From assembly GCA_030765065.1 (NCBI GenBank), contig CM060980.1:59442364-59506363 (forward strand): a stretch of 64,000 bases of DNA, in the 5' to 3' direction. The notes under the pieces are model-generated. The model was not told the origin of the DNA. It did no database searches and was given only the letters and a program-made list of their open reading frames with translations. This DNA is from Deroplatys truncata. Lineage: Eukaryota; Arthropoda; Insecta; Mantodea; Mantidae. The translations under genes were made by a program, and so were the position numbers. Each line of letters opens with the position of its first letter. Within the stretch, counting starts at the first letter, position 1. Of this stretch, positions 3,501-64,000 are shown piece by piece.

Positions 3501-3541
3501 TTTAATTTTGTAAGTGGCAGGTTTTATTTTAATAATATATG

Positions 3542-26322: not shown

Positions 26323-27120
26323 ATGTATTACAGTCACATGACTTTCTCTACTCTTGTACAAACTATTTTTACAAACGCTTATTCTCCATATGCTTCATGT
26401 TAATCGAGATATAGAGATGTTAATCTTATTGCTAATTTTCTTGTAGATGCAAGGGGAATTGGTAGGCTTTAAGCAATAGACAAATATTTTAAGAGCTGGT
26501 TGCTGTATGCAGTATTCCATTCTCTTTGTATTACCAGGACAAAAAAAAATTACTAACGAATTCACATTTGAGAAAAATTATTGGAAAATTTAAGGGAATA
26601 ACAAGCAACTTCTCGAAAATGGTTCACTCAACAAAAAAACGTATGTGACATAAATTTTGTATTTTAACGCGATTACATTTTTTGTGTAGTAAAATTTTGT
26701 CGTTCACAATGAAGAACACTTTTGGAGACATTCCCAGAAAATTCGAGATATACATTTCATTTGTCATGAAAATATCTTAAACATATGATATTTTAATCAA
26801 AATCGTTAGAGCCACTTTTGAGAAAATTAAAATTTTCAAAATATGTTCCATGTAAAGGGAAATATGGGGTGGGGGATTTTCTTGAAAACCTTCGTGTCGC
26901 ATCTCTGGAAGATACTGAGCCTAAATGCCAAATTTGGTGTTTATCCGACTTTTCGTTTCTGAGTTATGCTGTTCACAGACACACATACGGACATGTTTCC
27001 AAAAATGCTTTTTTGGTTTCGGGGGACCTCAAAACATGTATTTCCGGTGAAATCTCGGTATCGAATTTTTGGGTGGAATACAATACTTCCCCTACTTACT
27101 ATACGTAGTAGAGAAAGTAA
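26323..27120 (-). repeat. Family K repeat, copy K7
   Basis: A young copy running from AAAAATCTGATGTATTACAG to ATACGTAGTAGAGAAAGTAA. It has all landmarks and is close to K1, K4, K8 and K9 in sequence. Confidence 0.9.
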
Positions 27121-27139
27121 AAAAGGAAAATTCTAACAT

Positions 27140-32762: not shown

Positions 32763-34028
32763 AAAAAAATCTGATGTGTTACATTCACATGACTTTCTCT
32801 ACTCTTGTACAAACTATTTTTACAAACGGTTATTCTCCATCTACTTCATGTTAATCGAGATAAACATTTGCAGACTCTATCTTATTACTAATTTTCTTGT
32901 AGATGTAAGAGGAATATATATAGAAATATGGCGGCGCCGTGGCCGAGTGGTTAGACCGCTCGCCTCTCATCGAGGTGGCCCGGGTTCAATCCCAGGGACC
33001 TGCATGTGGGATTTGTGGTGGACGAAGCGGCGTCTGGGCGGGTTTGTCCCGGGTTCTCCGGGTTCCCCCGCCATTCATTCCACCAACTGCTCCATCATCA
33101 CCTTTCCTTTCATCCATTTCACCGACATTTCGTTTCATCTACTTCCTTCATCCCATACCAGGCATCGGGCTGATCACCCATCCTGGATGTTCTGTCTGAT
33201 CCATGAGTGTCTGCTCCTCGACGGGCCTCTGACCCCAGGCACCCGTCTGTAAGTCCTGGGGGTGTAAGTCCTACATAAGAGGAGGGTAAACAGATAATGA
33301 ATGAATACAGAAATACAGTAGCCTTTAAGCACATACATATCTCTTAATCGCTGGTTGTCAGGTGCAGCACTATTCCCTTTGCCACAGATTAATACTCTTT
33401 GCATATCCAAGACAACAAAATTAATAACGAATTCCCATTTTTGCAAAAGTATTGAAAAATTTAAGGGAATAAAAAGCAATATCTCGAAAATGGTTCACTC
33501 AACAACAAAAATGTATATGACATAAATTGTGTATTTTAACGCGATCTACATCTTTTGTGCAGTAAAATTTTCTCTATCTCTTATGGTTTACCACTTTACC
33601 AAAAGTCGTTCACAATGAAGAATACTTTTGGAGACATTCCCAGAAAATTCAAGATATACATTTTATTTGTCATGAAAATATCTTAAACATATGATATTTT
33701 AATCAAAATCGTTACAGCCGTTTTTGAGAAAATTAAAATTTTCGAAAAATCTTCCATGTAAAGGGTAAATCTTCTTGAAAACCTTCGTGTCGCATCCTTG
33801 GAAGATACTGAACCTAAATACCAAGTTTGGTGTTTATCCGACAGTTCGTTTCTGAGGTATGCTGTCGACAGACAGACACACAGACACACACACGGACATG
33901 TTTCCAAAAATGCTTTTTTTTGGATTCAGGGGATCTCAAAACATGTATTTCTTGTGAAATCTCGGTATCGAATTTTTGGGTGGAATACAATACTTCCCCT
34001 ACTTACTATACGCAGTAGAGAAAGTAAG
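32763..34028 (-). repeat. Family K repeat, copy K8 (split by a SINE)
   Basis: The most complete K copy in this orientation, AAAAAAATCTGATGTGTTAC to ACGCAGTAGAGAAAGTAA, with SINE-A inserted near its start (32929-33305). K9 follows without a spacer. Confidence 0.9.
32929..33305 (+). mobile_element. SINE-A copy 2, inserted in K8
   Basis: The same head (A box GTGGCCGAGTGGTTAGAC, B box GGGTTCAATCCC), body and AATGAATG-type tail as the copy at 4326. An imperfect 10-bp duplication, TATAGAAATA / TACAGAAATA, flanks it. It has about 10 extra bases in the body (GATCCATGAGTGTCTGCTCC region). Confidence 0.9.
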
Positions 34029-34650
34029 AATAACGAATTTGAGAAAAAGTATAAGTATTGCAAAATTTAAGGGAATAACAAGCAATATCTCGAAAACGGT
34101 TCACTCAACAAAAGGAATGTATATGACATAAACTGTGTATTTTAACGCGATCTACATTTTTTGTGTAGTAAAATTTTGTCTATCTCTTATGGTTTACCAG
34201 TTATGCAAAAGTCGTTCACAATGAAGAATACTTTTGGAGACATTCCCAGAAAATTCGAGATATAAATTTCATTTCTCATGACAATATCTTAAACATATGA
34301 TATTTTAATCAAAATCGTTAGAGCCATTTTTGAGAAAATTAAAATTTTCGAAAAATGTTCCATGTAAAGGGTAGTCTGGGGTGGGGGGCTTTTCTTGAAA
34401 ACCTTCGTGTCGCATCTCTGGAAGATACTGAACCTAAATACCAAGTTTGGTGTTTATACGACTGTTCGTTTCTGAGTTATGATGTTCACAGACACACACA
34501 CACACATACACACACACGTACATGTTTCCAAAAATGCTTTTTTTGGATTCAGGGAGTCTCAAAACATGTATTTCCGGTGAAATCTCGGTATCGAATTTTT
34601 GGTTGGAATAAAATACTTCCCCTACTTACTATACGTAGTAGAGGAAGTAA
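34029..34650 (-). repeat. Family K repeat, copy K9 (shortened, tandem to K8)
   Basis: It begins inside K at GAATAACGAATTTGAGAAAA and runs to ATACGTAGTAGAGGAAGTAA. The first 230 or so bases of K are missing. Head-to-tail with K8 with no spacer. Confidence 0.9.
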
Positions 34651-34654
34651 AAAG

Positions 34655-36590
34655 ATAGGATACTCTGCCCCACAATAGAATGCTTGCTAATTGCTCGAAG
34701 CTGGCCGCGAATGTGTTACCGCATTACATGGTAGTATTGACTTTTGCTATTGTCATTTAATTCTCAATGCAATTATTCTGTGGACCACGGTTTTTGTTTT
34801 CTTTCTTGTTGATTTAGGCAACAAAGATAACGTTAGTTCAGGTTGTGTCTATACGCACAATCATCTCTTAAGCCAATAATATTTACGCCCTCTATATTTG
34901 GTATGTGTGTTTGTGGAGGCTTTTGACTATTACGAAAGTTAATAAAACCAAAGTCAAGAAGTAATGAGTCTATAGAAACAGAACTGTAGAAGTATCAGCA
35001 AAATTTAAATACCCTTTGGACTCAAAACAACACAAACTTATTAAAATCTATCTGATTAAGCTACTGTAACTAACATAATTATCATAGAGTGAAAATAATC
35101 TTAATATGGGAATAATTATGGGGATACAGATTAGACTCAAAATAGAATATGCTAATGCTGCAAGTAGAATCCCAAATAAGCTTCATGTTTGTATGCATGT
35201 ATCAAAATAGTACTTCTGCAACTTAAGAAGATTGGCTATTGTGTTAACAAAGCGCCTCTTTGAAAATGAATAGTGAAGCATTTTCTAATAGCTGTGCATC
35301 CTCCCTAGTGATGAGTCCAGTTCACAGAGGACTAATTTGCGGATATTTACAAAAGAAGTGAGTGACTGACTGCATACTGAACTGTGGCTAACATAGCTTA
35401 ACAACATAATGTTTATTTGTGAGTAACGGTTGTTTAATTTAAGTAAGCTTCAATAAATACTGAAAGTATTTTGGAAAACTGTACGTACTCACTGATTCAT
35501 TGTTAGCTGCGGCAAAATGTTTTCGATTTGCCTTCTTGAAATCCATAAATTGCCCACTTTTTCTGGAAAGATTAATACAGGTTCATTTGAACTTCCTTTA
35601 CTTCCAATGAACCACCTGTAGTGTGGCTCTTTCCCTAACTGACCGTTAAATTATTAATTTAATTGTGACCTTGAGGATTTGTCTACCATATTTTTTCTAA
35701 ATAATCTGGAACTTAAATTCACTTACACATGCAGCTGACTGTTTGCATTTAAGCTTGTTAGGTTGACAGCTGCTTCGAATTACGCTAAGGGGAAGGACCT
35801 AACCTAACATTAGTGTCCAAATAAAGTTACCTTGACCTGATAAATTATCACATTTGAGTAGCAGAATAGAGAACCTAAGCGAGGCGTAACCCACAGAAGA
35901 AAAGTCCCAGGACAGAAATCTGACGGAAGGACCTAAAGAAAAATGTATGTACTGAGCGCAACTCAGAATAAAACAAAGTATCTCTTTCTTGGGTTAATTT
36001 TCCTGTTTAAATTAGCTTTCTTTTTTTCCCTTTCCTTCCTTTTTTAATTGTTATAACAACTCAGGTCCGCAGAGATAATGAATGAAATGATGAAATAAAT
36101 GCATAAATAAGTATACGGTTATGAGCGGAGAATTGCCCGATAGAGCTCAGATGCCCTGGACTAGAAATCAACTCCCTACACTTCTTACTTCGTAAAAAGA
36201 CAGTGCTTAATGCCAAATGTTTTAGTATACACATAATTTTTATCGTAAGGAATTTTAATTGTTTTAATGCTTGAACTCTCATAAATTCACTTATCTGGAT
36301 CTCGTTAATCATTTTAAAACTTAAGACATCACCACTAAATTTGAAACCAGTTTACCTCACTTAGTGAGAAATAAATTACATGCACAGTATATCGGGAGTG
36401 AGTCAAAAATAATTTAATTCACGTCATATTTTAGGGAACCCTGCCAGAACTTATGGTTGAACTGCAATATTGCTTTTAAGGCATGTATGACTCGTAGTTC
36501 GATGAACGAGAAATAATTCTTCATTGTTTACTACCAGTAGAGTGCAGCAGCATCCCAAACATGGCCATAATGAATATTTTCTAACTTACC
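34655..36590. other. AT-rich DNA, nothing recognised
   Basis: About 1.9 kb. Short frames only; no terminal repeats or A/B boxes recognised. Confidence 0.45.
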
Positions 36591-42974: not shown

Positions 42975-43823
42975 TAATAAATCCGATGTGCTACATTCGC
43001 ATAACTTTCTCTACCATCTATCACTATACAAATAATTCTTACGTAAGTTTATTTTCCTATTTATTTTATTTTAATTGAGGTAAGCCTTTCCGGAAGTAGC
43101 TGCATTACACATTTCTTTATAAATACAAACAGAATAATGATAATAAAATTTTTAAGAACTGGATAATATATGCGGCCTTAAAATTCGTACTCTTTCCACG
43201 ACATCGCGAGAAGCAACTGAAAATTGGCAGGGACTAAGTATTGAACAATTCGAATCATTAATAACGGATATCTCGGAAATGGCTAATCCAACGAAAAAAT
43301 TATTTGTAATAATTTGTGTGTTTTAAATAGATCTACATTTTTTGTAGCACGTTTTCGCCTATCGCTTAACGTTTACCAGTTATGCTAGATTATATAAATT
43401 TCCTTCCGAATGAAGAGTACATCACAAGTCATTTCCAGAAAATTCAAGATATACACCTTATTGGCCATGTGAATATCTTTAATATATGATATTTAATCAA
43501 AATATTTAGTCATTTTTTTAGAAAATAAGGAATTTTGAAAAATGTTCCATGTAGGGTTGTTTGGGTTGTCTTTATGGCTCAATTTTGGACGATACTGAAC
43601 TTAGACAGCAAGTCTGGTATTTATCCTACATTTCGTTTTTGAGTCATGCTGTTTAAAGACAGACACAGAAAGAGAGAGAGAGAGACACGTTCTTTTTCTA
43701 AAAATGCCTTTTTGGATTCAGGGAGCCTCAAAACATGTATTTTTGGTTTAATCTCGGTATCAAAATTTTGGGTGGAATTCAACAGCTTCTCTCTACTACT
43801 ATGTTGGAGGTAGAAAAACTAAA
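42975..43823 (-). repeat. Family K repeat, copy K12 (older subfamily)
   Basis: It runs from AAATCCGATGTGCTACATTC to GTTGGAGGTAGAAAAACTAA. The CA position holds an (AG)n run (43669-43684). Similar in subfamily to K14-K16. Confidence 0.8.
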
Positions 43824-43824
43824 A

Positions 43825-45645
43825 ATAGTTTGCATTTTGAAATTAAAATTTGATTAAAATATATTATAACTTCTATTGTTTACAAAATTGCAGTATTAAC
43901 CAAGTCTAAATATTTTAAGCCGTTTGTATACACCTTAGAGTCTAATAAAATTAATTAATAATTGAACTTTACCCATATAGACTTTAAAGACCCCACTCAA
44001 TGACCTATGAGATTGAAAATAATCCATACAAGGGCATAAATAAAAGAATAAAATTTTTATTCTAAGGTTTTATGACAACTGAGGAGTTTTGAACACACCC
44101 AAAGGCTAATGTTGCTGTATGAACCTTCCAGAACATAGTTCTAAGAAATTAACTGCCATTACATTAAGAAGGCGAACAACAACCCATCACGGTTTTCCTA
44201 CCACGCCTCTCTCATCAAATTCAGGTTTCTCTCCACCAATATCCAAAACTCATCTCATTTCTAAAAAATACAAAACATTACCTGAATCAATCGTGTTACT
44301 CCCTCTCCAACTCCAGGAGGCGGGTTCTACAACGTCAAGCGATCACTCCAAACAACCAAGCAACGCCTTCCAAGATGCGTAATTGCCGGTAACCGATGTC
44401 AGTTGTTTTTATTATGAAAACATTCGACAGGCAGCGCTAAACTTTGTGTTTCACTGCATCCATCTTTGTGAACTTTAATGATCACCTTTCCTGATGCACC
44501 ATTAGGGAAACGTGGGTCTGCCCAGGAATGGGAGATACATGCTGTTTGTTCAGGGTTGACCACTGGTTGAGGTAGGTATTTCAACTGATATCATCTATAC
44601 TTTTCCATTAATCAAATTCAAATACGGTAAAGGAGTTTTAAAACATATGGTACTAAAAGTATGGGTGTTAACAAATGTTAATAACCTCAGAAATTAATTA
44701 TTATACACAGCGTACTAAGAGTTACTGCTTTATGCAATACTACCTTATGCGCAAGTTGTTACTGTATTGCATACCGTGCATAATTGGTCCATTATGACAC
44801 CGTGGCAATAATAGCAATGACGTATTCACTATAGCAATTACCATTTTGTGAAAATCTTTGCTCTGAACAACGAAGATTCTGTACCTCTGTACATTATTAA
44901 ACATAGAATAAATAAGATATGAAATTAAAATTCTTAGATACTGTAGCGGTAATAGGGTACACGCTCTTAAATGAAATCTATTATTGCAGGAATATATACT
45001 ATAGTAAACCACACTGTTAAGTTGCTTTAAATCTAATTTGAGGTAAATTTAATTCTTACAGGGAGACAGGGCGTTTGTTTTGTTTTCCTTACGCTGTCCG
45101 TTTTAAAAGGGATGCACCACTAATTTTAAAAGGCTATGTCAGCTATGAATTCAGAATTATTTCAGGATTTATTTGCAACAATTTATGAGGCTAAGATTGC
45201 ATAAAATGTCGTAACCAGCTCCTGGAAGACATTCGTACCAATAATCATCACTTGCTATATAAATTACTATTATCAAACAAATGATGAAGGCTGCATGTTC
45301 ATTAAAATAACTCTATCCTGCTAAAAGAAATTAAACACAACATTAAATGACGTGATTATACAAATATCTGATTATACAAATATTTAAATAAATAAAGTGT
45401 ATATACGTATGTATGAATGTGTGTGTGCTAATCCAGAAAACCAATGAAATCGATTTTGATAATCCTTTATCCATTAAAAATCACTGTTTTCCGACTATAG
45501 TATCCAATTTTAATTCCCAGATTAATGGAACGCTAAAAAAGCATTTACAAGTCCTGGATGTTAGAATATGAACATCTGGACTTACAAAAGTAGAATGCCA
45601 TGGAGTTCAAAAGAGCTTTGTTATTGTTGCGCCAAAGAAAGTGCA
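43825..45645. other. AT-rich DNA, nothing recognised
   Basis: Frames of 87 codons (44119-44382) and 90 codons (44740-45012, minus) show no recognised domain. No boxes or terminal repeats. Confidence 0.4.
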
Positions 45646-45647
45646 TG

Positions 45648-46545
45648 TAAAAATCCGATGTGCCACATTCACATGACTTTCTCTTCACATTGTCGTTTAT
45701 TTTATATTGCTTCTGAAAACTGTTCTTACGAAAGCTTATTTTTCTATCTATTCCATATTAATGGAGATGTACCTTTGCAGAAATAGTTTCATTATACAAG
45801 GGGGATATAGGAAACCAAATCGATAGTCAGATGTTTATATGCTAGGGTATCACATGCTAGTCGTCATATTCTGTTTCTTTGACATCACGAGAAACAACTG
45901 AATAGTAACAGCAGTTTAAAGTATTGAAACATTCAAATCAATAATAAAGGATATCTCGGAAGCAGTTGATAATACAAAAGTTTGAAGTATTAGAAATTTT
46001 TTGGCTTTTGAAATAAATTGTGTGTTTTAAAAATATCTAAGTGTTTTGATGTAGATAGCTTTTGAGTAGTGCGTTTTTGTTTATTGCTGAAGGTTAAAGT
46101 TAAACAAATTGTGCATAATTCCCTCCGAATAAAGAGAACATCATTAGCTATTCCCAGAGAACTCAAGATATAATTTATTTATCATGTAAATATTAAAATA
46201 TGGTATTTTAATAGAAATCGTTAGAGCCATTTTTGAGAAAGTAAACAATTTTGAAGAAAAATGTTCCGTTTAGAAGCTGGTTTGAGGTAGGGGGAATTTT
46301 CTTGAAAATGTTGATGTCACAGCTTTGGGACATACTGAACTTAAACACCAAGTATGGTGCTTATCCGACATTCTGAGCTATGCTGCTCTTCATACAAAGC
46401 AACCAACACACAGATCACAGATGCACTTATTTTTCGAATAATGGCTTTTTGGATTTAGGTAGCCTCAAAATATGTATATGTATATGTGAAGTCTCAGTAT
46501 CGAATGTTTTGGGAAGTACAATTCTTCGAAAAGAAAAACATTTGA
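45648..46545 (-). repeat. Family K repeat, copy K13
   Basis: It begins AAAATCCGATGTGCCACATT and fades out in GAAGTCTCAGTATCGAATGT. The first LTR cluster lies about 75 bp beyond, and the tail of K13 is part of the 144-bp repeat copied on the far side of that cluster. Confidence 0.75.
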
Positions 46546-46619
46546 AATCTAAACGGACTACTGGGTCCCAATCCTTCAGAATGGTGATATGTTATAGCTG
46601 CTGTTTTTGCAATTGATTA
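46476..46619 (+). repeat. 144-bp direct repeat, left copy
   Basis: From ATATGTATATGTGAAGTCTC to GCAATTGATTA. By eye it is identical, without gaps, to 51976-52119. The two copies exactly bracket the LTR cluster. Confidence 0.9.
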
Positions 46620-46913
46620 AAACAGTTACGGCAGTTCATCACCCTTTTGCGCAGTGTAGTGTGTCTGTGAACTAAGGCAGCGTGGTGTGTGCGTGTGCGG
46701 GATGCCAAAGCTAGTGCATTAACAATATTACGTCGACTGCACTTACATCGCTCTCGCTTCTCGTTATCGCCCAGCACCATTGTCGTCGGCTGGGTGCAAC
46801 CACAAATATGTATTGCTCTTTTATTTTACATCACACATTTCTATGTCATTTTTTTTTTTTTGGTATGTCTTTCTTTTGTTTTTTTTCCTGTATTTTGTAC
46901 TTATGTTCTTTCT

Positions 46914-46931
46914 GTCGACGAGGACGTCGAC
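46914..46931 (+). other. Hairpin upstream of polypurine tract
   Basis: GTCGACG-AGGA-CGTCGAC can fold into a 7-bp stem with a 4-base loop, 19 bases before the LTR. The same hairpin precedes four other LTRs in the window (50485, 58052, 61763, 62363). Confidence 0.7.
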
Positions 46932-46950
46932 TTGGGTGGCCAGGGGGAGA

Positions 46951-47445
46951 TGTGGCATGTGCACAGATTGTAGTAATAGCCGTGCCCTCTGGTTACTCAA
47001 GCTGAAGGTTGGCAGGTTATCCGAGGAGGGGCGTTTGAGGGGAAATAGTCTCATTGGAGGGGATATGGCGTTAGGACGCCAAGCTTAACGAGTTTTTTCA
47101 AGGGGAGTCAGTGTCTAGTCTTCGCGGTGTTGAGATGTACGGATAGTTGTGCAATGATAGGGCGTCCTCGTCCCGGCAGACACATGGGTAAGCATATTTA
47201 ATAAACCTTCTACTTATTCTTCTCCCTTGACTTTTAATTATGGTAGTATAGAATCCTTGCCTTTCCCTTCAGCCAGGAATTATGTGAGTGTAAGAATATC
47301 TGTGAGTTTAACTTTAGCTGCGTCCCTTTGTGTCGGTGCCTCTTAAAGTAAAGTTTCCTTAGTTTTGAATAACGATCCCTCTCACAGCGAGTAGCTCTCC
47401 TCTGAAAGTTAAATAATAAATTACAGATTATTGAGGTACGCGACA
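46951..47445 (+). repeat. LTR 1a (495 bp)
   Basis: TGTGGCATG...CGCGACA, preceded by a polypurine tract. It contains an AATAAA signal near its middle. It differs from LTRs 1b and 1c at several positions, so it is older or from a sister copy. Confidence 0.85.
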
Positions 47446-50197
47446 AATTCTTCCATATGTTTATTCTGCTTAAAAATCTTGGTATTGTGTCCAAGTGGCT
47501 TGTGTAGCCGTGTGTTAGTATAATTTTCTGATATTTCGCCGCGGGCGCTTAATTGTGTTCTTTCTGCAACTGTTTTATTTGGCTATGTTCTACTCTTGCT
47601 ATTTACATTCATGTGTTGCTATAAGTGTTTAGTGTGGTGTAATCTGAATTGCTTGGTCCTACGGTTTGTTTATTGGTTGTGTTATCTTTTGTGCTGCAAT
47701 CATGCATAAGCGCCGTCCTGCACAGAAAGTTGATATAGTAATTGCTCCAGTTGGCGAGCACAGTGTGGTGGAATCTGTCCAGTGTTGGTACGACTGTTAC
47801 TCAGTTATCAGCTGGCTGCCGCCGGTCATTGACCCCTCTCACATGGAGCATTCCAACGAGTTGTCGCCGTATGAGTTATTTTAGAATGTTGCAATGTTGG
47901 CTACTACTGCTATTGGCCGCTCTGAGAATGATGATAATTTTGCTTTACCATTGCCAAGTTTGGTTTAATTCCGTAATGTATATTTTTAAGGGAAGATCTT
48001 TCGCAGTTACTCATGTAAGTAAAAGTTTCAGGGACTACCAACCTTGCCAGTATCTACACCTAATTAGGTTTGATGTGCTTCTAATATGGACCAGTACGAT
48101 GTGGATGTTGATACACCAGCTGTACGTGTGTTACCAGATTTTGGACAATTTGCACGGGAATTTTGTGGTAAACGAGTAAGAGAAAAGAAAAAAATCACCT
48201 GTAAGTATGTAATCATTGTGAGTGCTAAAGTTTGGATGAATGAAACAGTTTTACGACTCACACAGGTATGCTAAATTTATTGTTTCAGTGACTGATGCTT
48301 AATTAAGCTTTGTTTTTCAGGAATATGTGATATGAATGTCTCTGCTAAATTATAAGTATATTGTTATTTTGGGTGTAACTTAAATTTTGAATTATGTTTT
48401 GGTAACTGCAAATCATTTGTTTTGTTGTTGTGTTATACTGCAGGAATGTGTTTTAGGTGTACAATATGCTTAATTAAGCTTTCATTTTCAGGAATGTTAT
48501 GTGACAATATTGTTTTGAATAATGATGTGATGTTGTTTTGTTGCATTCGATTTGATTTGATATGACATGATTTGATTTTGACTATTTGATTTCCATAATG
48601 ATGCTGTGATCTTTATTTGCAGAAAATTTGTTGCATGAATAGTGTTTGTATGTATGTGTGTATTTGAGGTTATGTGATATAGGTGAGATTTGCCTCGGTG
48701 GGAGTGCCAAGTGTAACCCCGATGGCGTGGTGTGAGGTTATGTGAGAGATAAGAGTTGAGATTTGCCTCGGTGGATGTGCGTAAGAGTAACCCCGACGGT
48801 GTTGATGAGGAGAGATGAGAAGAGATGAGATGTCAGCTTCGGTGGAGGTGCCACAGTGTAACCCCGATAGTTGAAGTGTATGAATGTGTTGATTTTTCAG
48901 GAGGGCTACATGTACCTGGAAAGTTGATGTGATGATTGTACTGATTTTGCTTATTGGTGTTGCTGTAACGTGCCCAGTATAGCGTGTGTGATGAATTCAC
49001 ACGAGAGATTAAATAGATGGAAGTGAATGTAATGAAAATAATTTTTTTTTCTCTGTTTATGCAACAAGTTTATTACCATCTTAGATAGCAAATGTTAATA
49101 CCACCTGTTTTCCAGCTTATTTCTTGATTTTGAGGATGTAGATGCAACATTATAATGTCATGTTATTTGTGTAATTCCTGAATTAATGTGATTTCTTGAA
49201 GGTTATGCCTATGTCAAATGTTTTGAATTTACAGCATGTTAAATGAGACACGTAAGTGCAGATGTTTTGTTTTGGAGAGAAAATTGAAAGATGATGATGA
49301 TTGAAGTAATGATTGAGATTGCACTATTACTGCTACTGATGATGATGATGATGATTATGGAAGATGATAGTTAAACTGCGATGAGAACAATAATGATGTG
49401 GATAAGAAGTTGTATTCATGACAAGAGTAGGACACTAGTAGTTGAAAGCATGTCACGTGGCGTAGTTTAGAAATGTATTGTGGATGTAGCTTGTAGTGAT
49501 GTATACACTAGTTTGAGTAGATAGTTAAGTCGCTGTTGTGTGTAATTTGGGGCCATGGTCAGTGTGAATGAGTTCATTTCATCGTCATGTGTGACTGTCT
49601 TGTAAGTGCACTTACTTTCTTTTGTTAGTGATACCAGCTGGTTATTGAGATGTAATATTGGGATCCCAAGATAAGGTTATGTTTCATTTCTGTCATGTTT
49701 ATGTGCTTTGAGTCTGTTTTACTGTTATTTGGATTATGACGCATTGTAAGTTCAATTTTCGATGGCAACTATGTAAAATTTCTTTCTTATGCCAATTTGT
49801 TCTAATTTCCTTTTCTCTTTACTTGCCCATGTCAAAAGAATTTTTTTTGTGTACACTTTTCATACTTTAAAATCTTTATTTGTAAAGGACATACCCTTCT
49901 TTTCTGTGTGATTCTTTGTGGGAGCATCCTGTTTATTGTGTCGTGGTTTTGTTTTAGAATTATGCTGTGGTAGAGAGCGAGAAAATCCAAGAGCATCCCC
50001 GGGGCACACCAGAAGTCAAGAAACACCACAGGGAAGCTGTCGGGCAGCCACTACACTGCCGTGGCATAAGGAGCCACCATGTCGGGGGGCAGTCCAAGCC
50101 AGCGACTGCCCACCCTGTTGTCATCACCAGAGACCTGCGGTGCTAATCCTACACCAGGACAAATCGTCGTTGTGGGCACTGTCTCAACCACCCACAA
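47446..50197 (+). mobile_element. Interior of LTR cluster 1, non-coding
   Basis: From about 47926 onward the sequence aligns with the interior of cluster 2 (60565 down to 58370, minus strand). 47446-47925 is specific to this copy and holds a 72-codon frame (47666-47884) I do not recognise. A short frame beginning MDQYDVDVD at 48086 runs into a good splice donor (CCTGTAAGTATG), and both are kept in cluster 2. Acceptor-like TTTTTCAGGAAT motifs occur at about 48310 and 48480. A degenerate tandem repeat of about 70 bp with GTAACCCCGA cores lies at 48680-48880, and a GATGAT tract lies near 49335. No reverse transcriptase, protease or integrase motif seen. Confidence 0.6.
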
Positions 50198-50484
50198 ACA
50201 GTTACGGCAGTTCATCACCCTTTTGCGCAGTGTAGTGTGCCTGTGAACTAAGGCAGCGTGGTGTGTGCGTGTGCGGGATGCCAAAGCTAGTGCATTAACA
50301 ATATTACGTCGACTGCACTTACATCGCTCTCGCTTCTCGTTATCGCCCAGCACCATTGTCGTCGGCTGGGTTCAACCACACATATGTTATGCTCTTTTAT
50401 TTTACATCACACATTTCTATGTCATTTCTTTTTTTGGTATGTCTTTCTTTTGTTTTTCCTGTATTTTGTACTTATGTTCTTTCT

Positions 50485-50502
50485 GTCGACGAGGACGTCG
50501 AC
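50485..50502 (+). other. Hairpin upstream of polypurine tract
   Basis: Identical to the hairpin at 46914, and again 19 bases before the LTR. Confidence 0.7.
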
Positions 50503-50521
50503 TTGGGTGGCCAGGGGGAGA

Positions 50522-51013
50522 TGCGGCATGTGCACAGATTGTAGTAATAGCCGTGCCCTCTGGTTACTCAAGCTGAAGGTTGGCAGGTTATCCGAGGAGG
50601 GGCGTTTGAGGGGAAATAGTCTCATTGGAGGGGATATGGCGTTAGGACGCCAAGCTTAACGAGTTTTTTCGAGAGTCAGTGTCTAGTCTTCGCGGTGTTG
50701 AGATGTACGGATAGTTGTGCAATGATAGGGCGTCCTCGTCCCGGCAGACACATGGGTAAGCATATTTAATAAACCTTCTACTTATTCTTCTCCCTTGACT
50801 TTTTAATTATGGTAGTATAGAATCCTTGCCTTTCCCTTCAGCCAGGAATTATGTGAGTGTAGAATATCTGTGAGTTTAACTTTAGCTGCGTCCCTTTGTG
50901 TCGGTGCCTCTTAAAGTAAAGTTTCCTTAGTTTTGAATAACGATCCCTCTCACAGCGAGTAGCTCTCCTCTGAAAGTTAAATAATAAATTACAGATTATC
51001 GAGGTACGCGACA
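50522..51013 (+). repeat. LTR 1b (492 bp)
   Basis: It starts TGCGGCATG and ends CGCGACA. It matches LTR 1c with a single difference seen by eye. Immediately after it, AATT leads into 25 bases of an inverted LTR end (TGTCGCGTACCTCAATAATT). Confidence 0.9.
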
Positions 51014-51483
51014 AATTTGTCGCGTACCTCAATAATTTGTAAACGGATAGCCAACACGTGACGAGCACATTTTGAAACAACACCTATATCACTCGTTTCT
51101 TCTGAAATTTCACAAAAACATTTTTTTTTTTTTAAAACAACCAGCACAAAGAACGGAACACAGTGATATAATTTAAAGGAAATGAAGCCAAAACAAGGGG
51201 AAAATGGAGTCAGAAGTTTTAGCGTCACCCGGCAGACAATGGGAAAATATGCAAAAATGAACTCAAAATTGAAATTTCGACACCAGACTTTCAGAAATGA
51301 TAGAAACAAAATTTAGAAGAAGAGAACCACAAATAAAAGTATAAAAATCCTTACCCTTCAGCCAGAAAGAACTTTACATTTTTCACGACCACGTGGAGGA
51401 CAAACCGTTACATTTGGAGGGAAAAAAAATTTTGCACTTAAAATCTCAAAACAATTCAATTCTACCTGGCGCCCCCGCCAATT
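51014..51483 (-). other. Reversed 5' leader of the LTR family
   Basis: 470 bp that reads, on the minus strand, as the segment downstream of a 5' LTR. It starts with primer-site-like TGGCGGGGGCGCC beside LTR 1c. It is related to the leader of cluster 2 (61267 down to about 60840): both have CCACGTGG, AACGGTTT and CCCATTGTCTG. No coding frame was recognised. Confidence 0.7.
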
Positions 51484-51975
51484 TGTCGCGTACCTCGATA
51501 ATCTGTAATTTATTATTTAACTTTCAGAGGAGAGCTACTCGCTGTGAGAGGGATCGTTATTCAAAACTAAGGAAACTTTACTTTAAGAGGCACCGACACA
51601 AAGGGACGCAGCTAAAGTTAAACTCACAGATATTCTACACTCACATAATTCCTGGCTGAAGGGAAAGGCAAGGATTCTATACTACCATAATTAAAAAGTC
51701 AAGGGAGAAGAATAAGTAGAAGGTTTATTAAATATGCTTACCCATGTGTCTGCCGGGACGAGGACGCCCTATCATTGCACAACTATCCGTACATCTCAAC
51801 ACCGCGAAGACTAGACACTGACTCTCGAAAAAACTCGTTAAGCTTGGCGTCCTAACGCCATATCCCCTCCAATGAGACTATTTCCCCTCAAACGCCCCTC
51901 CTCGGATAACCTGCCAACCTTCAGCTTGAGTAACCAGAGGGCACGGCTATTACTACAATCTGTGCACATGCCACA
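51484..51975 (-). repeat. LTR 1c (492 bp), inverted
   Basis: A complete LTR in reverse, TGTCGCGTACC...GCACATGCCACA on the plus strand. Its 5' end abuts the right 144-bp repeat directly, so it is the only LTR of cluster 1 joined to flanking DNA by its own end. Confidence 0.9.
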
Positions 51976-52119
51976 ATATGTATATGTGAAGTCTCAGTAT
52001 CGAATGTTTTGGGAAGTACAATTCTTCGAAAAGAAAAACATTTGAAATCTAAACGGACTACTGGGTCCCAATCCTTCAGAATGGTGATATGTTATAGCTG
52101 CTGTTTTTGCAATTGATTA
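51976..52119 (+). repeat. 144-bp direct repeat, right copy
   Basis: Identical by eye to 46476-46619. It continues into single-copy DNA beginning TAAGTATTCGTTCAGC. Confidence 0.9.
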
Positions 52120-52555: not shown

Positions 52556-53429
52556 CTTTTTTTCAGAAGGCTTTTCTACCCTCTATCCCATATTAATTGG
52601 TATACAAATTATTCTTACTAAAGCTTATTTTTTTATCTACTACAGTTTAATCCAAATAAACATTTGTAGAAATAGCTACATTACACACATAGTTGTAGAT
52701 ACAAGGACTGCATAGTCAAATGTTTAAGAACTGAACGCTACACATTGGTCTTAAAATTCCATAGTGTTTCAATGGAATCGCGAGGAAGAACTGGATGTTG
52801 ATAGGACTTTAAGAGGAAGACCAAGTAATGAACAATTAGTACCATTAATAATGCATATCTCAGAAATGGCTTATACAACAAAATAGGTTACCTATTTGAC
52901 ATAAATTTTTGTGTTCCAAATTGTGTGTTTTAAAGAATCTACATTTTTTGTGGAGTACGTTTTCGTCTATCGCTTAACGTTTACCAGTTATACAAGATTA
53001 TACCAAATTTCTTCCGAATGAAAAGGAATTCACAGACTGTTTCCAGAAAATTCAAGATATGTTTCATTTGTCACGAAAATATTCTTAATATATGATAGTT
53101 TAATCAAAATCGATAGAGCAATTTTTCAGAAAATAAAAAATTTTCAAAAATATTCCATCTAAAGGGTAGGTGGTTTGGGGAGATTTTCTTGAAAATATAT
53201 GTCGCATCTTTGGAAGATATTGTACCTAAACACCAAGTTTGGTATTTATGCGACGTTTTTGAGTTATGCTGTTTTTATACACTAACGCGCGCGCGGAACT
53301 TTTTCTAAACATTTTTGGGTTTAGAGGGCCTCAAAACAATATATTTCCAGTGAAATCTCTACATAGAATTTTTGGGTGGAATAGAATAGTTCTCCTACTT
53401 ACTGCCTATACATAGTAGAGAAAGTAAAA
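52556..53429 (-). repeat. Family K repeat, copy K14 (older subfamily)
   Basis: It runs from CTTTTCTACCCTCTATCCCA to ATACATAGTAGAGAAAGTAA, with AACGTTTACCAGTTATACAA and TTTCCAGTGAAATCTC as landmarks. Confidence 0.8.
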
Positions 53430-53660
53430 ATTACCTCAGTTATTTGGAACTCAATCTCAAAATCATGGAAGTACTTAAATACACTTTTATCAGAGCAGAA
53501 AAACCGATCTAACCAATTCCCAAACTTCCGTAAAGCAACTTTGACATCGACGAGAATATTTGGACACCCCGGTGCAATAGATTATAAACACAAATTTAAA
53601 AGTGAACTGAAAAAATCAAACAAAATATAGTAAACAGGAAGTGTGTAAACGGTCAAATAT

Positions 53661-54140: not shown

Positions 54141-54335
54141 CATAAGAATTGGAAGTATTATGCGAATTCTGTTTACAGTGTTCAGTTATGCCTAAACAGA
54201 AACTGGTGGTAAAAGTCAGCACTTTTAGGAGCTAAATGTCTATAAGCAGGGTTGTGATACATCTGTGATTATACCCATCGAACTTTTTTCTTCTAGTTCT
54301 AAATGATGATTGTAGTTTTAAATTTGACTTCATTT

Positions 54336-55174
54336 GATGATTTACATTTACATGGCTTTCTCTGCCATCTATCGCTTATTAGTGAGTATACAAATTATTC
54401 TTACGAAAGTTTATTTTCCAATCTACTTAATCTTAATCGAGATAAACTTTTCCGGATATAGCTACATTATACATTTCGCTATAGATACAAATGGTACAGC
54501 GATAGGCAGATATTTAAAAACTGGACGCTATATACTGGCCTTAAAATTCCACACTGTTTCCATGTAATTGCGAGAAATAATAACCGAAAATCGACAGCAC
54601 TTTAAAACAATGGCTGATTATTGAAAAATTCCCATAATTAATAACGGATATCTCAGAAATGACTGATGCCATATTTAAAATAAATTGTTTTTTTAAAAAG
54701 AGAACTACATTTCTTGTGTAGTGCATTTTCACTATCGCTTTACGTTTACCAGTTATATAAGATTATACAAAATGTCTTCCTAATGAAGAGCACTTTACAA
54801 GCTATTCCCAGAAGATTCAGGATATAGATTTTATTTGTCATGTAAATATCTTTAATATATGGTATTTTAATCAAACGCGCAGAGCCATATTTTATAAAAT
54901 AAAAAATTTCGAAAGGTCATCCATGCAAAGGGTAGTATGAGGAGGGGGATTTTCTTGAAAACATTCGTGTTGCTTTTTTGGAAGGTAACGAATCTAAATA
55001 CCAAGTTTGATATTTATGTGAGATTTTTTTTTTTTTTTTATGTTTTGCTGTTCATAAACACACGGAAGTTTGTTTAAAAATGCTTTATTTTGATTCAGAG
55101 GGCCTCAAAGCATATATTTTGAATTAAATCTATGTATGGAATTTTTTTGCGTACATAGTAGAGAAAGTAATAAA
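54336..55174 (-). repeat. Family K repeat, copy K15 (older subfamily)
   Basis: It runs from TTTACATTTACATGGCTTTC to GTACATAGTAGAGAAAGTAA. Close in structure to K14 and K16. Confidence 0.8.
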
Positions 55175-57089: not shown

Positions 57090-57562
57090 AAAATCTTATG
57101 TATTGCATTCCCATAACTTCCTCAACCCTCTATCGTTCATTAGTGGATATACAAATTATTCTTACGAATGTTTGTTTTTGTATCTACTTCATTTTATTTC
57201 AGATAAACCTTTGCGGAAATAGTTGCATTACACATTTCGTTAGGATACAAAGAGAGCGGTGATAGTCAAATGTTTAAGCTATATCCTTGCCTAAAATTCC
57301 ATAGTTTCCATGCAATCGCCAGAAAGAACTGAAAGTCGATGGGACTTAAAAATATTGACAAGTATTGAACAAATCGAACCATTAATAACGGATATTTCGA
57401 AAATGATTGTCTCAAAAAGTTAATTGAAATAAATTGAGTATTTTAAAGAGGTCTACATGTTTTGTGTGGTACATTTTCGTCTATAGCTTAACGTTTACCA
57501 ACTATACAATATTATGCAAAAGTCCTTCCGAAAAAAGAGGCCTTCACAGGCTATACCCAAGA
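57090..57562 (-). repeat. Family K repeat, copy K16, first part
   Basis: K sequence from TCTTATGTATTGCATTCCCA to CACAGGCTATACCCAAGA, interrupted by LTR cluster 2. The remainder resumes at 62878. Confidence 0.85.
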
Positions 57563-58032
57563 TGTCGTGGCCTCTAAACAAATGCTCAATGGGAGGTAGG
57601 CGACTCGCTAATAAGGTAGCAGGAAGTTAACAAATTTAATAAAGGCGAGGACACGACAAGGGACGCAGCTAATTGAATATGAAAAACATTATAGGATAAC
57701 TACTAAAACGGATACCTACATGGTTCAGAATAGAAGAAAGGAGCTTTATAATATGGTAAATGAAACAGGTAAGGCGTGGATGGTATTTTGTTGTATTACT
57801 GAAAAGTGTTACATTACCTCCTTGACCACGCGTCGAGGACGCCATACATTCCTGTATGGAGAGTACGTAATAAGACGACCTGTCCGGTGCGCTCCTACTC
57901 ACTGACTGACTAGCCAAAACAACCCAAGCCACGCTTACCGCGTGGGTACGCTATCTATGCTCTACCCCCACCACTCTTACATCATCCCCGATCCAAGCGA
58001 CCAACGGACACGTATGCACTAACAGTGCCACA
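57563..58032 (-). repeat. LTR 2a (470 bp)
   Basis: On the minus strand TGTGGCACTG...GGCCACGACA, preceded by a polypurine tract (CAGGGGGAGA). An AATAAA signal is absent, but TTTATTAAATTTG is present near the end. Nearest relative is LTR 2c. Confidence 0.85.
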
Positions 58033-60619
58033 TCTCCCCCTGGCCACCCAGATCGACGCCCTCGTCGATACAAGGACGATTTTGTTTATGGAGCAGAAAG
58101 AGAAAAAAAGTACAATACAGAAGAAAATATGACATACAGAAGGTTAGATAATTGGACAACAAGAAAGAATATCTGTGATTACATGCAGATTGGCATATTT
58201 GGAAGTCTCGAGTGTCTCTGACAATGTTTTTATTTTACAGATCACCTACGTACGACTACCCCGCACACTACACCATGCTGCCACTGTTACATGCACACTA
58301 CACTGCACTGGATGTTCTGAAGTAACTGTTTGTGGGTGGGATTTCCACATCACCCACAACGGCGAATTTTCAGCTGCAGTCTTTCAGGTGCTGCAGGTCG
58401 CTGAAGATGTGGGGGGAGTAATCGCTAGCTTGGACTGCCCCCCAAAATAGTGGCTCCTTATGCCACTGCAGTGTAGTGGATGAACGACAGCTCTCCTGTG
58501 GTGTCTCTGGAACCTCTGGCGTGACTATCCAGTGGGGGTACATTTTGACACTCGAGCTCCAGGATCAGCAAAGTCACTATAACAGAAATCACAGAAAGGT
58601 AAAAATGCTGCTCCAGAAGATCATCATAAATAAAAAAGTAGTATGTCATTTACAATAAAAAGATTTAAAATGCCAAAAAGGTTAACAATCAATCAATTCT
58701 TTTAGTAGGGGCAAAGAGAAAAAAAAAATGACTACACGTTGACATAAAAACTAAATTTTACAGAGGTTTACCATCCAAAATTTAACACAAAATGCTTTAG
58801 AATCCAAACACAAAAACACAAAAGGAACAGAATACATAAACATTACATCAGTGACATTCATTGTGTACATACAATAATATAACACAAATATAGCAACTTA
58901 TTTGGGATCCCAATATTATTTAATGACCAGCTGGTACTACTAGTGAAGAGAAATAAGTGCACTTACAATACATTCATACATGACCATGAAATGAAATCAT
59001 TCATACTGACCATGGCCCAAATTATACACAACACTCACTTAAATAACTACTCAAAGCTACTGTGTGCATTACTACAGACTTCAAAAATAAATCCACAGTA
59101 CATATTCAAACTACACGACATTACATTCTTTCAACTACAATACTCATACTCTACTGTCAAATAGAAATTCTCCTCTACATTACTATCTTATCCATCCCAT
59201 TATTATCCTCATCATCTCAATCATCATCATCACCATCATCATCATCATTATTTCAATCATCATCATCAGTATTTCAATCATCATCGTCTTAGCTTTCTAC
59301 TTTCTCGTAGACAGTAATTACTGAGAAAATAAAATATCTTCACTGACGTGTCTCATTCAACATGCTGCAAAGTCAAAAATACCTGACATAGGCATAAACT
59401 TAAAGAAATCACATTAACATTTCAGGAATGACACAAATAACATGACATTATACTGTTCCATCCACATCCTCCGAATCAAAATTAAGCTGGAAAATAGATG
59501 GTATTAAAACTCGCTATATAAGATGGTAATAAACTTGTAGCATAAACACACAAAAAAAATTATTCTCACTGCATTCAACTCATTACATTTACTCTCGTGT
59601 GAATACATCACACACGCATTACTGGGCACGTAACAGCAACACCAATAAGCAAAATCTCTCAAATCATCACATCAAATCGAATTTCCAGGTACATGTAGCC
59701 CTCCTGAAAATCAAAACATTTACACTTCAACTATCGGGGTTACTCTTTGCCACTTCCACCGAAGCTGACTTTATCTCATCTCATCTCTCACACTACACTG
59801 TCGGGGTTACTCTTAGGCACTTCCACCGAGGCAAATATTAACTCATATACTACCACATAACCTCAAAAACATACATACACTATTCATGCAACAATTTTCT
59901 GCAAATAAAAATCACAGCATCATAATGAAACCTAAAATCAAACCAAATCGAATTCAACAGAATAAAATCACATCATTACTCAAAACAATACTGTCACAGA
60001 ACATTCCTGAAAATCAAAGCTTAATTAAGCACACGGTACACATCAAACACATTCCTGCAGCTTAACATAACAAAACAAATGATTTGCAATGCCCAAAAAC
60101 AGAATTCAAAATTTAGGTTACACAAAATGATAATAAACTTTCAATTTAGCAGAGACATTCATAGCACACATTATTCCTGAAAAGCAAAGCTTAATTAAGC
60201 ATCAGTCAGTGAAACAATAAAAATTTAGCATACCTGTGTGAGTTGTGAAACTGTTTCATTCGTCTAAACTTTAGCACACACAATGTACACATACTTACAG
60301 GTTATGTTTTTTCTTTTTACCACAAAATTCCAGTGCAATTTTCCAAAATCTGGTAACACACATATAGCTGATCCATCAACATCCACGTCGTACTGGTCCA
60401 TATTAGAGGCACATTAAACCTAATTAGGTGAAGATACTGGCAAGGTTGGTAGTAGCTCCTGAAACGTTTACTTAAATGAGTCATTTTGAAACATTTTCCC
60501 CCAAAAATATGCATTGCGTAACTAGATAAACAAAAACATGGCAACGGTGAAGCAAAATTATCATAATTATTTTTACCACTATGCGTACCGCGAGTGTACA
60601 ATGCACAAATATGAATTTG

Positions 60620-60663
<44 letters not shown>

Positions 60664-61267
60664 TCTTGACTTATTTCGTTTTATTATTTTAAATATTTCA
60701 AACATATGCACCACACTTTTTATACACACGCAACACGTGAACTTTAAAATATTTGCTGCACTTTCGAGTCGGTAACACTTACAAGATGACGCAACCAATA
60801 AATGCAATGTTACGTAGATCAGCTAACACACGCAACTATATTATCAAAGTTACAAATATCGCCCAATTTTTCACAATTCACAAAAATCTATACTTTAAAA
60901 ATGACCAGCACGAATAATTTACCACAGTACCAGAATTTAGTGGAAATGAAACCAAAGTAAGGGAGAAAATGGAGCCAGGAGTTTTAGGGTCACGCCACCG
61001 ACAGACAATGGGAAAAATTTAAAAATGAACTTAAAATTGAAACTTAGACACGGGACTTTCAGAAAACAATGCAACAAGAATTTAGAATACAGAAACCACA
61101 AATTATACCATCGAAACCCTTACCCTTAAGCCAAGAAACAGATTTACGTTTTAACAACCACGTGGAGGAACAAAACCGTTACATTTTACAGAAAAAAAAA
61201 TTTGCACTTAAAAACCTCAGAAAAATTACATTATGCCAGCCAAAATACTCGGCGCCTCACGCCAATA
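58033..61267 (-). mobile_element. Interior of LTR cluster 2, non-coding
   Basis: About 3.2 kb. It starts after LTR 2b with the leader and ends in the 3' segment. It aligns with cluster 1 from the MDQYDVDVD frame (near 60397, minus) through the donor (CCTGTAAGTATG), the CAGGAAT motifs, two copies of the GTAACCCCGA tandem unit (59735-59835) and the ATCATC tract (59218-59287). A (TA)n run of about 42 bases lies at 60620-60661. No reverse transcriptase, protease or integrase recognised. Confidence 0.6.
58052..58069 (-). other. Hairpin upstream of polypurine tract
   Basis: On the minus strand ATCGACG-AGGG-CGTCGAT. The outermost pair is A-T here and G-C in other copies, a two-sided change that keeps the stem. 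19 bases from the LTR. Confidence 0.7.
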
Positions 61268-61743
61268 TGTCGTAGCCTCCAATCAAACACACTCAAGCGG
61301 CAGAGCACTCGCTAGAGAGGTATCAGGTAGTTAACAAATTGTAATAATTTAAATAAGGCGAGGCTACGACTAGGGACGCAGCTAAAGTGAAAGTGCAGAA
61401 ATATTATTAAAAACTGGCAAAAGGACACTTACATGGCTCAAAATAGGTAGAAGGAGCTTTACACTATCATAAATAAGACAATAAAGATCTGGATGGCAGT
61501 CTTTATTAGATAAAACTTACTACATACCCCATCTCCTTAGTTCCATGCCTGTCGGGCGAGGCCGCCATGCATTCCTGCATGGAGAGAGCGAACACTGGTC
61601 TGGTCTGGTTGACTTCTACACACTGACTCTCCCAGCCCCAAGCCAGCTTATCGCGTGGGGGCGCCAACTAAACTACCCCCACCTAAACTACAACCGCCAT
61701 CTACAATCCAGGTGACCAAAGGGGCGTATGCGCATACGGCACA
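61268..61743 (-). repeat. LTR 2b (476 bp)
   Basis: On the minus strand it starts TGTGCCGTATG and ends GGCTACGACA, followed by the primer-site-like TGGCGTGAGGCGCC and preceded by a 3' segment and polypurine tract. It therefore has features of both a 5' and a 3' LTR. Much more divergent from 2a and 2c than they are from each other. Confidence 0.8.
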
Positions 61744-61762
61744 TCTCCTCCTGGCCACCTAG

Positions 61763-61780
61763 ATCGACGCCCTCGTCGAC
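61763..61780 (-). other. Hairpin upstream of polypurine tract
   Basis: On the minus strand GTCGACG-AGGG-CGTCGAT, which has a G-U outermost pair, intermediate between the G-C and A-T versions. 19 bases from LTR 2b. Confidence 0.65.
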
Positions 61781-62044
61781 ATAAGGAGAATGTTGTTTGT
61801 GAAAAAAACAAAGAAGGAGAAAAAAATTACAAAATAGAATAAAACATGACATACAAAAAACAAGCAGTATCTGTGAACATATATAGAGCCTACATATCTG
61901 AGCAAACGCACATGCTGACTGACATATTTGTGAGTCTCGAGTGTCGGCGAATTATTTTTCTTCAGATCACTTATGCTCGAGTACCCCGCACACGCACACA
62001 CACCATGCTGCCACTGTCACATGCACACTACACTGCACCTGGAT

Positions 62045-62114
62045 GGATGTTCCGACGTAAGTGTTTGTGAGTGATGTGGAAATCCCACTCACAAACAGTT
62101 ACGTCGGAACATCC
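62045..62114. repeat. Palindrome joining two opposed 3' segments
   Basis: The 29-bp arms GGATGTTCCGACGTAA... match inverted with one difference, separated by a 12-base spacer (62074-62085). On a larger scale, 61744-62073 and 62086-62398 are diverged inverted copies of the 3' internal segment. Confidence 0.85.
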
Positions 62115-62362
62115 ATGTGCAGTGTAGTGTGCATGTAACAGTGGCAGCATGGTGTAGTGTGCGTGTGCGGGGTACTCGTACGTAGATGATCTGTAAAACA
62201 AAAACATTGTCAGAGACACTCGAGACTTCCAAATATGCCAATCTGCATGTAATCACAGATATTCTTTCTTGTTGTTCAATTATCTAACCTTCTGTATGTC
62301 ATATTTTATTCTGTATTGTACTTTTTTTTCTCTTTCTTCTCCATAAACAAAATCCTCCTTGT

Positions 62363-62380
62363 GTCGACGAGGGCGTCGAC
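62363..62380 (+). other. Hairpin upstream of polypurine tract
   Basis: GTCGACG-AGGG-CGTCGAC, 18 bases before LTR 2c, whose polypurine tract is one base shorter. Confidence 0.65.
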
Positions 62381-62398
62381 TTGGCTGGCCAGGGGAGA

Positions 62399-62877
62399 TG
62401 TGGCGTATGCAGGCATTGTTAGTGCATACGTGTCCGTTGGTCGCTTGGATCGGAGATAACGTAAGAGTGGTGGGGGTAGAGCATAGATAGCGTACCCACG
62501 CGGTAAGCGTGGCTTGGGTTGTTTTGGCTAGTCAGTCAGTGAGTAGGAGCGCACCGGACATGTCGTCTTATTACGTACTCTCCATACAGGAATGTATGGC
62601 GTCCTCGACGCGTGGTCAAGGAGGTAATGTAACACTTTTCAGTAATACAACATTATACCATCCACGCCTTACCTGTTTCATTTACCATATTATAAAGCTC
62701 ATTTCTTCTATTCTGAACTATGTAGGTATCCTTTTTAGTAGTTATCCTATAATGTTTTTCATATTCAATTAGCTGCGTCCCTTGTCGTGTCCACGCCTTT
62801 ATTAAATTTGTTAACTTCCTGCTACCTTATTAGCGAGTCGCCTACCTCCCATTGAGCATTTTTTAGAGGTCACGACA
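62399..62877 (+). repeat. LTR 2c (479 bp), inverted relative to 2a
   Basis: TGTGGCGTATG...GGTCACGACA, with polypurine tract AGGGGAGA before it. Sister of LTR 2a, with a few percent difference by eye. Its 3' end touches K16 sequence directly. Confidence 0.85.
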
Positions 62878-63223
62878 ATATATATATTGTGTTCTAATCG
62901 AAATCGTTAAAGCCATTCTTTAGAAAATAAACAATTGCGAAAAATGTTCTATGTAAAGAGTAGTTTGGGGCGTGAGAATGTTTCGTGTCGCGTCTTTGTT
63001 TGGTATTTATGTGACTTTTGTTTTTTAATTGTGCTCTTCACAGTCACACAGGCAGCAAGACCAGACAGACACACACATTCACATACACACCTTTTTCTAA
63101 AAATGATTTTTTTATTCATAGGGCCTCAGAACATGTACTTCTGGGTAAATCTCGATATCGAATTTTTGGGTGGATTGCATTACCTTCTCTACCTACTATG
63201 TACATACGTTGTAGAGAAAGTAA
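62878..63223 (-). repeat. Family K repeat, copy K16, second part
   Basis: It resumes with CTAATCGAAATCGTTAAAGC and runs to CGTTGTAGAGAAAGTAA. A CA-rich tract (63063-63090) is at the usual position. Confidence 0.85.
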
Positions 63224-63224
63224 T

Positions 63225-64000
63225 AACAATTCAAACTAATCTCTTCACCAATCAACTGTTTGCTGCCAAGGAGGAGGAATTCGAAGAAACATCTGATTCC
63301 TCATTGTTTCATCTAGCAATCTTATGTCTCACTACATTGTTCAATATTCCCGTATATGGAATTATTTCCCATGGAAAGTATCTCTCAAATACCTTTTAGC
63401 AGGCGAAATATTAAGAGGGTATAGTGGGTGCTCTGGGCATTTGAGCTTAGACCACGTTTGCCATTCATTTTATTTGAACGTGTACTCCGTTTTGTAGCGG
63501 GAAATTGTTGGTCAGTAGTTTCTGGAACGCGTCGTTCCTCTGGTTAATGCTATTTGCTGCAGTGTTCTTGTCCTCGGCTATGGATGCTCGCCGGCTGCTG
63601 TGTTTTCCATTCCTAATCTTTCGCTATATAGCTAATTCTTGGTTCTCAGAGTTATCGTGGGTGAGGCAAATTAAAAATGTACTGCATTTCCCTTAATAAA
63701 TGTGGTTTATTATCAATTTTAGTATTTATGGGCGGCTAGCTTTTCCCATTACACCAATCCCACCATTTGAATAAATCGGGAGCCTAAACTAACTGCATAC
63801 GCCTTCCCACCCATATGCACACAAGTGCATTTGTCGTCAAGAGCGTAGCACTTTGTGTCAACGAAATTCTAGAAGAGAGTGAAAATCTGGGGCCTTGTTC
63901 CCCCTTATATACCGGAGCCTAGTGACGCTTACCTCTGCGCCTCAAAATGTAACATTTCTATTTGGTCCTCAGACCGCGTTACCTTAACATGTATGAGAAT
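63225..64000. other. Unassigned DNA at window end
   Basis: Moderate GC content. An AATAAATG signal-like sequence lies near 63695 and a TATATA-like stretch near 63915. A 63-codon frame at 63505-63696 has no recognised domain. It could be part of a repeat extending past the window. Confidence 0.3.

Follow-up and report, generated by a model that had tools for sequence, protein, structure and literature searches.

Long terminal repeat (LTR) cluster 1, at positions 46620-51975 of the 64,000-nucleotide stretch of Deroplatys truncata DNA analyzed here (the window), is probably one recent insertion of a non-autonomous Ty3/gypsy LTR retrotransposon that integrated aberrantly, one end having been joined by integrase and the other built by template switching and end joining of cDNA pieces. 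The cluster contains all parts of the element's 4.4-kb form minus about 410 bases from the middle of the leader. The 5' part (LTR 1c and the adjacent leader) is inverted and lies beyond LTR 1b, tail-to-tail with it, and an extra LTR (1a), preceded by the 3' internal end of the element (X), stands at the left of the cluster, joined to the 3' part of the leader. Instead of 4 host bases, 144 are directly and exactly repeated around the cluster, and there is no short target-site duplication. Cluster 1 does not have the direct LTRs and the 4-bp target-site duplication at both ends that mark a normal insertion.

Complete relatives elsewhere in the genome define the normal form. We searched the 4.29-Gb genome with LTR 1b and scored the 40 best of 1927 first-look candidates. 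All 12 complete 4.4-kb relatives have their LTRs in direct orientation and the same order of parts: LTR, leader 5' part, about 410 further leader bases, leader 3' part, internal region, X and LTR. Their 5' LTR is followed by AAT and a TGG start resembling a primer-binding site (natively AATTGG), which in such families would bind the primer. The LTRs run TGTGGC...GCGACA (TG...CA). The scored list holds 23 insertions besides cluster 1, 21 of which have both edges readable (L046 and L047 were omitted). A 4-bp target-site duplication flanks 19 of these 21; it reads ATAT in 16 of the 19 and ATAC, GTAT and ATAG in the other three, and in all 19 the GACA of the LTR runs straight into it. The other two of the 21 stand out at their edges. 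L036 (C1:846871-852402) is a complete 4.4-kb copy with identical LTRs and no 4-bp duplication (CTGA / CTAT), a candidate for abnormal integration, and L034 (C3:144637641-144643142) has one additional A between its 3' LTR and the ATAT duplication, as if two bases rather than three had been trimmed from the unique 5' (U5) end.

The element of cluster 1 appears to be a non-autonomous Ty3/gypsy derivative. One 8.4-kb relative matches it in LTRs, leader and 3' region and contains, in this order, the Pfam domains Retrotrans_gag, RVP_2, RVT_1, RT_RNaseH, Integrase_H2C2 and rve; it thus codes for gag, protease, reverse transcriptase, RNase H and, after RNase H, integrase, as is typical of Ty3/gypsy. 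The gag and pol frames of this relative are long and open (L031 1-2601, L032 1-2600), and its LTRs show 0 differences (L006, L007), which argues that the family was recently active. Cluster 1 has no stop-to-stop frame of at least 150 amino acids, and Pfam at E 0.001 matches nothing in its 78-amino-acid frame (47648-47881). Penelope and DIRS elements are marked by terminal repeats in tandem or inverted arrangement; a reading of cluster 1 along these lines was dropped in view of the direct LTRs of 12/12 relatives and the integrase core of the scanned autonomous relative, no search for Penelope or DIRS enzymes having been made.

Cluster 1 begins at 46620, at AAACAGTTACGG, which is a truncated position within the element and not an LTR end. 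It is preceded by the left copy of the host duplication (46476-46619, +; beginning ATATGTATATG), which is identical at 144/144 positions to the right copy (51976-52119, +). From the left edge, X (46620-46950, +) leads into LTR 1a (46951-47445, +; 495 bases), which we assign to a second complementary DNA (cDNA). X-type sequence recurs at 50196-50521 (+), where GGGGGAGA adjoins LTR 1b, and lies immediately 5' of the 3' LTR in all 12 complete relatives. Compared with the six leaders of relatives that we aligned, the AATT 3' of LTR 1a (47446-47449, +) retains the U5 tail and is next to the leader 3' part (47450-47926, +; 96.9-99.2% identity to the 12 complete relatives). In these relatives the leader 3' part lies about 410 bases downstream of the leader 5' part, and at the joint with LTR 1a the primer-binding site and about 850 leader bases are gone. 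The internal region (47927-50195, +) follows in the same order as in all 12 relatives, and then the second X and LTR 1b (50522-51013, +; 492 bases).

Beyond LTR 1b the orientation turns. A perfect 30-base palindrome (51001-51030) forms the tail-to-tail U5-AATT-U5 joint, which leads into a 25-base U5 end of another LTR variant (51018-51042, −), the leader 5' part (51043-51483, −), whose TGGCGGGGGCGCC, resembling a primer-binding site, adjoins LTR 1c, and LTR 1c itself (51484-51975, −; 492 bases), whose unique 3' (U3) start TGTGGC abuts host ATAT. Across the 12 complete relatives, this part has 90-97% identity to the leader downstream of the 5' LTR, the match beginning only at position 25 in 2 of the 12. 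Judged from the sequence, LTR 1c with its leader and the stretch from the leader through the internal region to LTR 1b derive from a single standard 4.4-kb element, its 5' part flipped and about 410 bases lost between the two.

The original prediction had described 1b and 1c as LTRs in opposite orientations that differ at one position, with 1a differing at several, and had proposed that the three be aligned. The alignment bears this out: LTRs 1b and 1c have a single mismatch in 492 positions (C/T at 50524), and between 1a and 1b there are 3 indel events, together with 3 substitutions in one alignment and 4 in another. LTRs 1a and 1c, the outer two, are 3 substitutions and 3 indels apart. It was likewise right that 1b, ending in GCGACA, runs through AATT into an inverted 25-base LTR end and that the leader beside 1c is reversed with it, as its match to the 5' leader of normal relatives confirms. 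The prediction had also allowed that many identical LTRs across the genome would make the identity of 1b and 1c uninformative. For the part of the family that we aligned, this was not so: none of the 27 other LTRs (from 16 elements, the best matches to 1b) has fewer than 6 differences from 1b. LTR pairs within an element differ at 0-2 positions in 11 of 11 aligned cases, and LTRs of different elements differ at 2 or more in 340 of 340 comparisons (median, 8). With one difference, inside the range within elements and below that between elements, 1b and 1c appear to be sister LTRs from a single cDNA, and their near-identity implies that the insertion is young.

No second inverted LTR pair was seen among the 40 best of the 1927 candidates. 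Three of these 40 LTRs are those of cluster 1, 28 form 14 same-strand pairs spaced 4.3 to 11.7 kb apart, and nine are single in the list. Ten of the 14 pairs were read whole with 300-base flanks, the others by position or with 1.5-kb flanks. Wider reads covered seven of the nine singles: the elements of L045 and L048 each hold a direct partner too, the LTR in L047 adjoins a partial LTR on the same strand, that in L046 has a leader and no partner was seen within the sequence read, and three have no adjoining internal sequence.

The joints differ in kind. At the right edge (51975/51976), host ATAT meets TGTGGC, as in most normal copies, which gives this edge the look of a regular integrase joint; in host DNA flanking the cluster, the frequency of ATAT is about 0.01 per base. 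The left host joint, at 46620, reads GATTA|AAACAG and is unlike the edges of most normal copies. Where the inverted leader meets the 25-base end, the CCGTTTGCAAAT of the relatives is replaced by CCGTTTACAAATTATTGAGG. The 25-base end is identical to the ends of 8 of the 27 other LTRs, and it differs at 1/25 positions from 1a and at 2/25 from 1b and 1c; these two differences led us to reject its origin as a fold-back copy of 1b. The U5-U5 joint reads GACA-AATT-TGTC, which would fit two unprocessed ends (...GACAAAT) overlapping at AT, or at AATT if one more base had been copied. The joint after 1a reads GACAAAT-TCTTCC. AAT thus persists at both joints, behind 1a as well as from 1b to the 25-base end, and it is missing from normal insertions. 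Since the buried joints still carry AAT, unlike the copies with target-site duplications, they look like joined or copied unprocessed ends and not like integrase strand transfers. Read by eye, the matches at the joints are an imperfect TTnCAAAT (between leader and LTR), AATT or AT (at the U5-U5 joint) and T or TT (after 1a).

How could such an arrangement arise? We hypothesize that integrase inserted solely the U3 end of the cDNA bearing 1c and that the other end failed. A polymerase, either the reverse transcriptase of the particle or a host repair polymerase, would then have completed the other end by switching templates at short matches. It would have left the leader at TTnCAAAT for the U5 tip of a different LTR, then passed across the self-complementary AATT or AT of two unprocessed U5 ends into the 3' half of the sister strand, and from there onto a second cDNA (X and LTR 1a). 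The last switch would have been onto host DNA 144 bases beyond the first joint, producing the long host duplication. Some of the joints may predate integration and stem from template switching within the particle; the data do not separate these timings. This scheme is consistent with the two ends of the cluster: one has an integrase-like joint (in locally ATAT-rich DNA), and the other has a truncation (at 46620), a long host duplication (144 bp) and element DNA joined in either orientation (the flipped 5' part).

Several points weigh against one-ended integration followed by template switching. The order of the switches and the identity of the polymerase are inferred, not demonstrated, and the structure of cluster 1 itself is that of the assembly alone, which we have taken on trust. 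The 144 duplicated bases lie near the lower limit of the "hundreds or thousands" in the human immunodeficiency virus type 1 (HIV-1) work discussed below. The DNA around the right joint is rich in TATATG (ATATGTATATGTATATG), where ATAT is less telling than the flank average suggests, and microhomology is absent from the left host joint, GATTA|AAACAG. To account for the 25-base piece, one must assume a third LTR variant or else that the leader carried a G-to-A difference. Lastly, 10 of the 12 complete relatives were picked for their direct LTR pairs, so they define the normal form and not the rarity of the inverted one.

The original prediction had offered three explanations of the inverted pair, namely, self-integration, a junction between two cDNA ends and an inversion just after insertion. 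The junction fits best, because U5 meets U5 through AATT and the LTR of the relatives natively runs into AATTGG. Self-integration by integrase is disfavored and seems to us rather unlikely. It would start from a cDNA with 1c and 1b whose leader had already recombined (5' part, 25-base U5 end, AATT, 3' part); the U5 ends of 1b and of LTR 1a on the second cDNA would attack this AATT in concert, and the U3 end of 1c would then enter the host. Both buried U5 ends do read GACA|AATT, as with a 4-bp target duplication, the length that the family duplicates, and a preprint on Drosophila circles (PMC12132167) proposes auto-integration as the origin of rearranged one-LTR circles, about half of the nomad circles. 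However, AATT is found in 0 of the 19 duplicated targets, 16 of which are ATAT, and it is the native leader sequence after GACA in the relatives; moreover, the target would have to abut the LTR end exactly. Self-integration still requires the prior recombination of the leader, and alone it leaves unexplained the loss of about 410 leader bases and the 25-base piece, which differs from 1a, 1b and 1c.

A chromosomal origin, by inversion or by nested insertion and recombination after normal insertions, would draw on related elements, which are common in this genome (40 scored matches, 97-100% identity). We consider it improbable, since 1b and 1c look like sisters and hence point to one event. A later inversion accounts poorly for the cluster: neither the 25-base piece nor the 144-base target duplication is explained by it, and recombination between inverted LTRs is not expected to produce these features, the loss of about 410 bases or a left end inside the element. 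An artefact of assembly or of reads, from collapsed haplotypes or a palindromic read, is just as improbable in our estimate. Near-perfect inverted repeats are a frequent form of such artefacts, and cluster 1 contains one. Yet 462 bases of element-specific, non-repeat sequence lie between its arms, the sequences outside the arms differ, the 27-base arms of the central palindrome hold 2 mismatches, and one edge has the usual joint of the family. One-ended integration completed by template switching and end joining remains our preferred explanation.

A cousin of cluster 1 lies about 5.6 kb away. In cluster 2 (57563-62877), whose internal region is 74-80% alike, LTRs A and C form an inverted near-identical pair (92-94%, depending on the range compared), with a diverged direct copy, B (about 62-70%). 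Its inverted joint (B/C) is at the start of X, forms a hairpin with a 13-bp stem and lies within about 20 bases of the element position at which cluster 1 has its left edge. Cluster 2 has no target-site duplication, about 25-35 host bases are apparently missing (judged from paralogous host repeats), and its right edge reads GACA|ATAT. The likeness may be due to chance, or it may hint at a recurrent route. We think it unlikely that this Ty3/gypsy lineage has a recurrent route to inverted LTRs in which reverse transcription halts or turns back at the start of X and unprocessed, AAT-ended U5 tips pair. RNA folding at the start of X gave a strong signal at the cluster 2 joint (z score, −3.41) and a weak one at its 3' copy (−1.34). 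Hairpin pausing at this position was not used to explain cluster 1, where no fold signal was found (−0.15). An Rfam search of positions 40000-64000 with E up to 1 yielded 4 matches, all below the gathering scores and all to microRNA models on the cluster 2 palindrome.

In the internal regions of both clusters, a unit of about 70 bases is repeated in tandem, with three copies in cluster 1 (48681-48868) and at least two in cluster 2 (59722-59846), and the matches of several relatives are split there, which suggests altered copy number. Both clusters sit inside or beside a copy of a dispersed host repeat of about 0.8 kb, of which the window has many copies on both strands, 63-90% alike. Among others, these are at 3516-4325, 19095-19957, 26311-27123, 33391-34657, 42979-43827, 45651-46527, 52569-53434, 54335-55173, 57091-57559 and 62861-63229.

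The insertion in cluster 1 is a rearranged copy with no known function. Its interest lies in being a natural, legible record of how a cDNA may be finished after integrase has joined one end, with young, nearly identical normal copies in the same genome serving as controls. If further copies were found genome-wide, they would allow the rate of failed integration and the types of joints to be measured in a germline exposed to neither drugs nor mutations made for the purpose.

Among the open-licence papers listed by literature searches, judged by titles and the starts of abstracts, there was no natural insertion with inverted sister LTRs, which is no proof that none is in print. Three LTRs are common to cluster 1 and the cereal complexes of Sabot and Schulman (2007, PMC1950507), which are proposed to form before insertion, by template switching when reverse transcription draws on several RNAs. 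In the cereal complexes, as described, two elements share an internal LTR, the outer LTRs are very much alike and the target-site duplication is 5 bp long; cluster 1, in contrast, has an inverted sister pair made of an inner and an outer LTR, outer LTRs that differ and no short duplication. The one-LTR circles of Drosophila LTR retrotransposons (PMC12132167) resemble cluster 1 in that their cDNA was broken and rejoined so that an LTR abuts internal sequence; they are extrachromosomal, whereas cluster 1 is integrated and linear.

The closest likeness is to one-ended retroviral integrations. According to a study of aberrant HIV-1 integration (Retrovirology 2016, PMC5041404), when one end is not joined by integrase, that end is often truncated and connected either to host DNA or to viral DNA of either orientation, the other end being normal; the host duplications usually far exceed 5 bp, and the picture had been seen earlier for avian sarcoma-leukosis virus (ASLV). 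Cluster 1 likewise combines one normal end, a truncated other end and a long host duplication. The HIV-1 and ASLV cases come from cell culture with inhibitors, integrase mutants or damaged viral ends (PMC5041404). Cluster 1, in contrast, is a natural Ty3/gypsy copy with 144 duplicated bases and pieces of at least two cDNAs. We conclude that the cluster is real and young and that this known kind of accident, here in a natural setting, explains it well.

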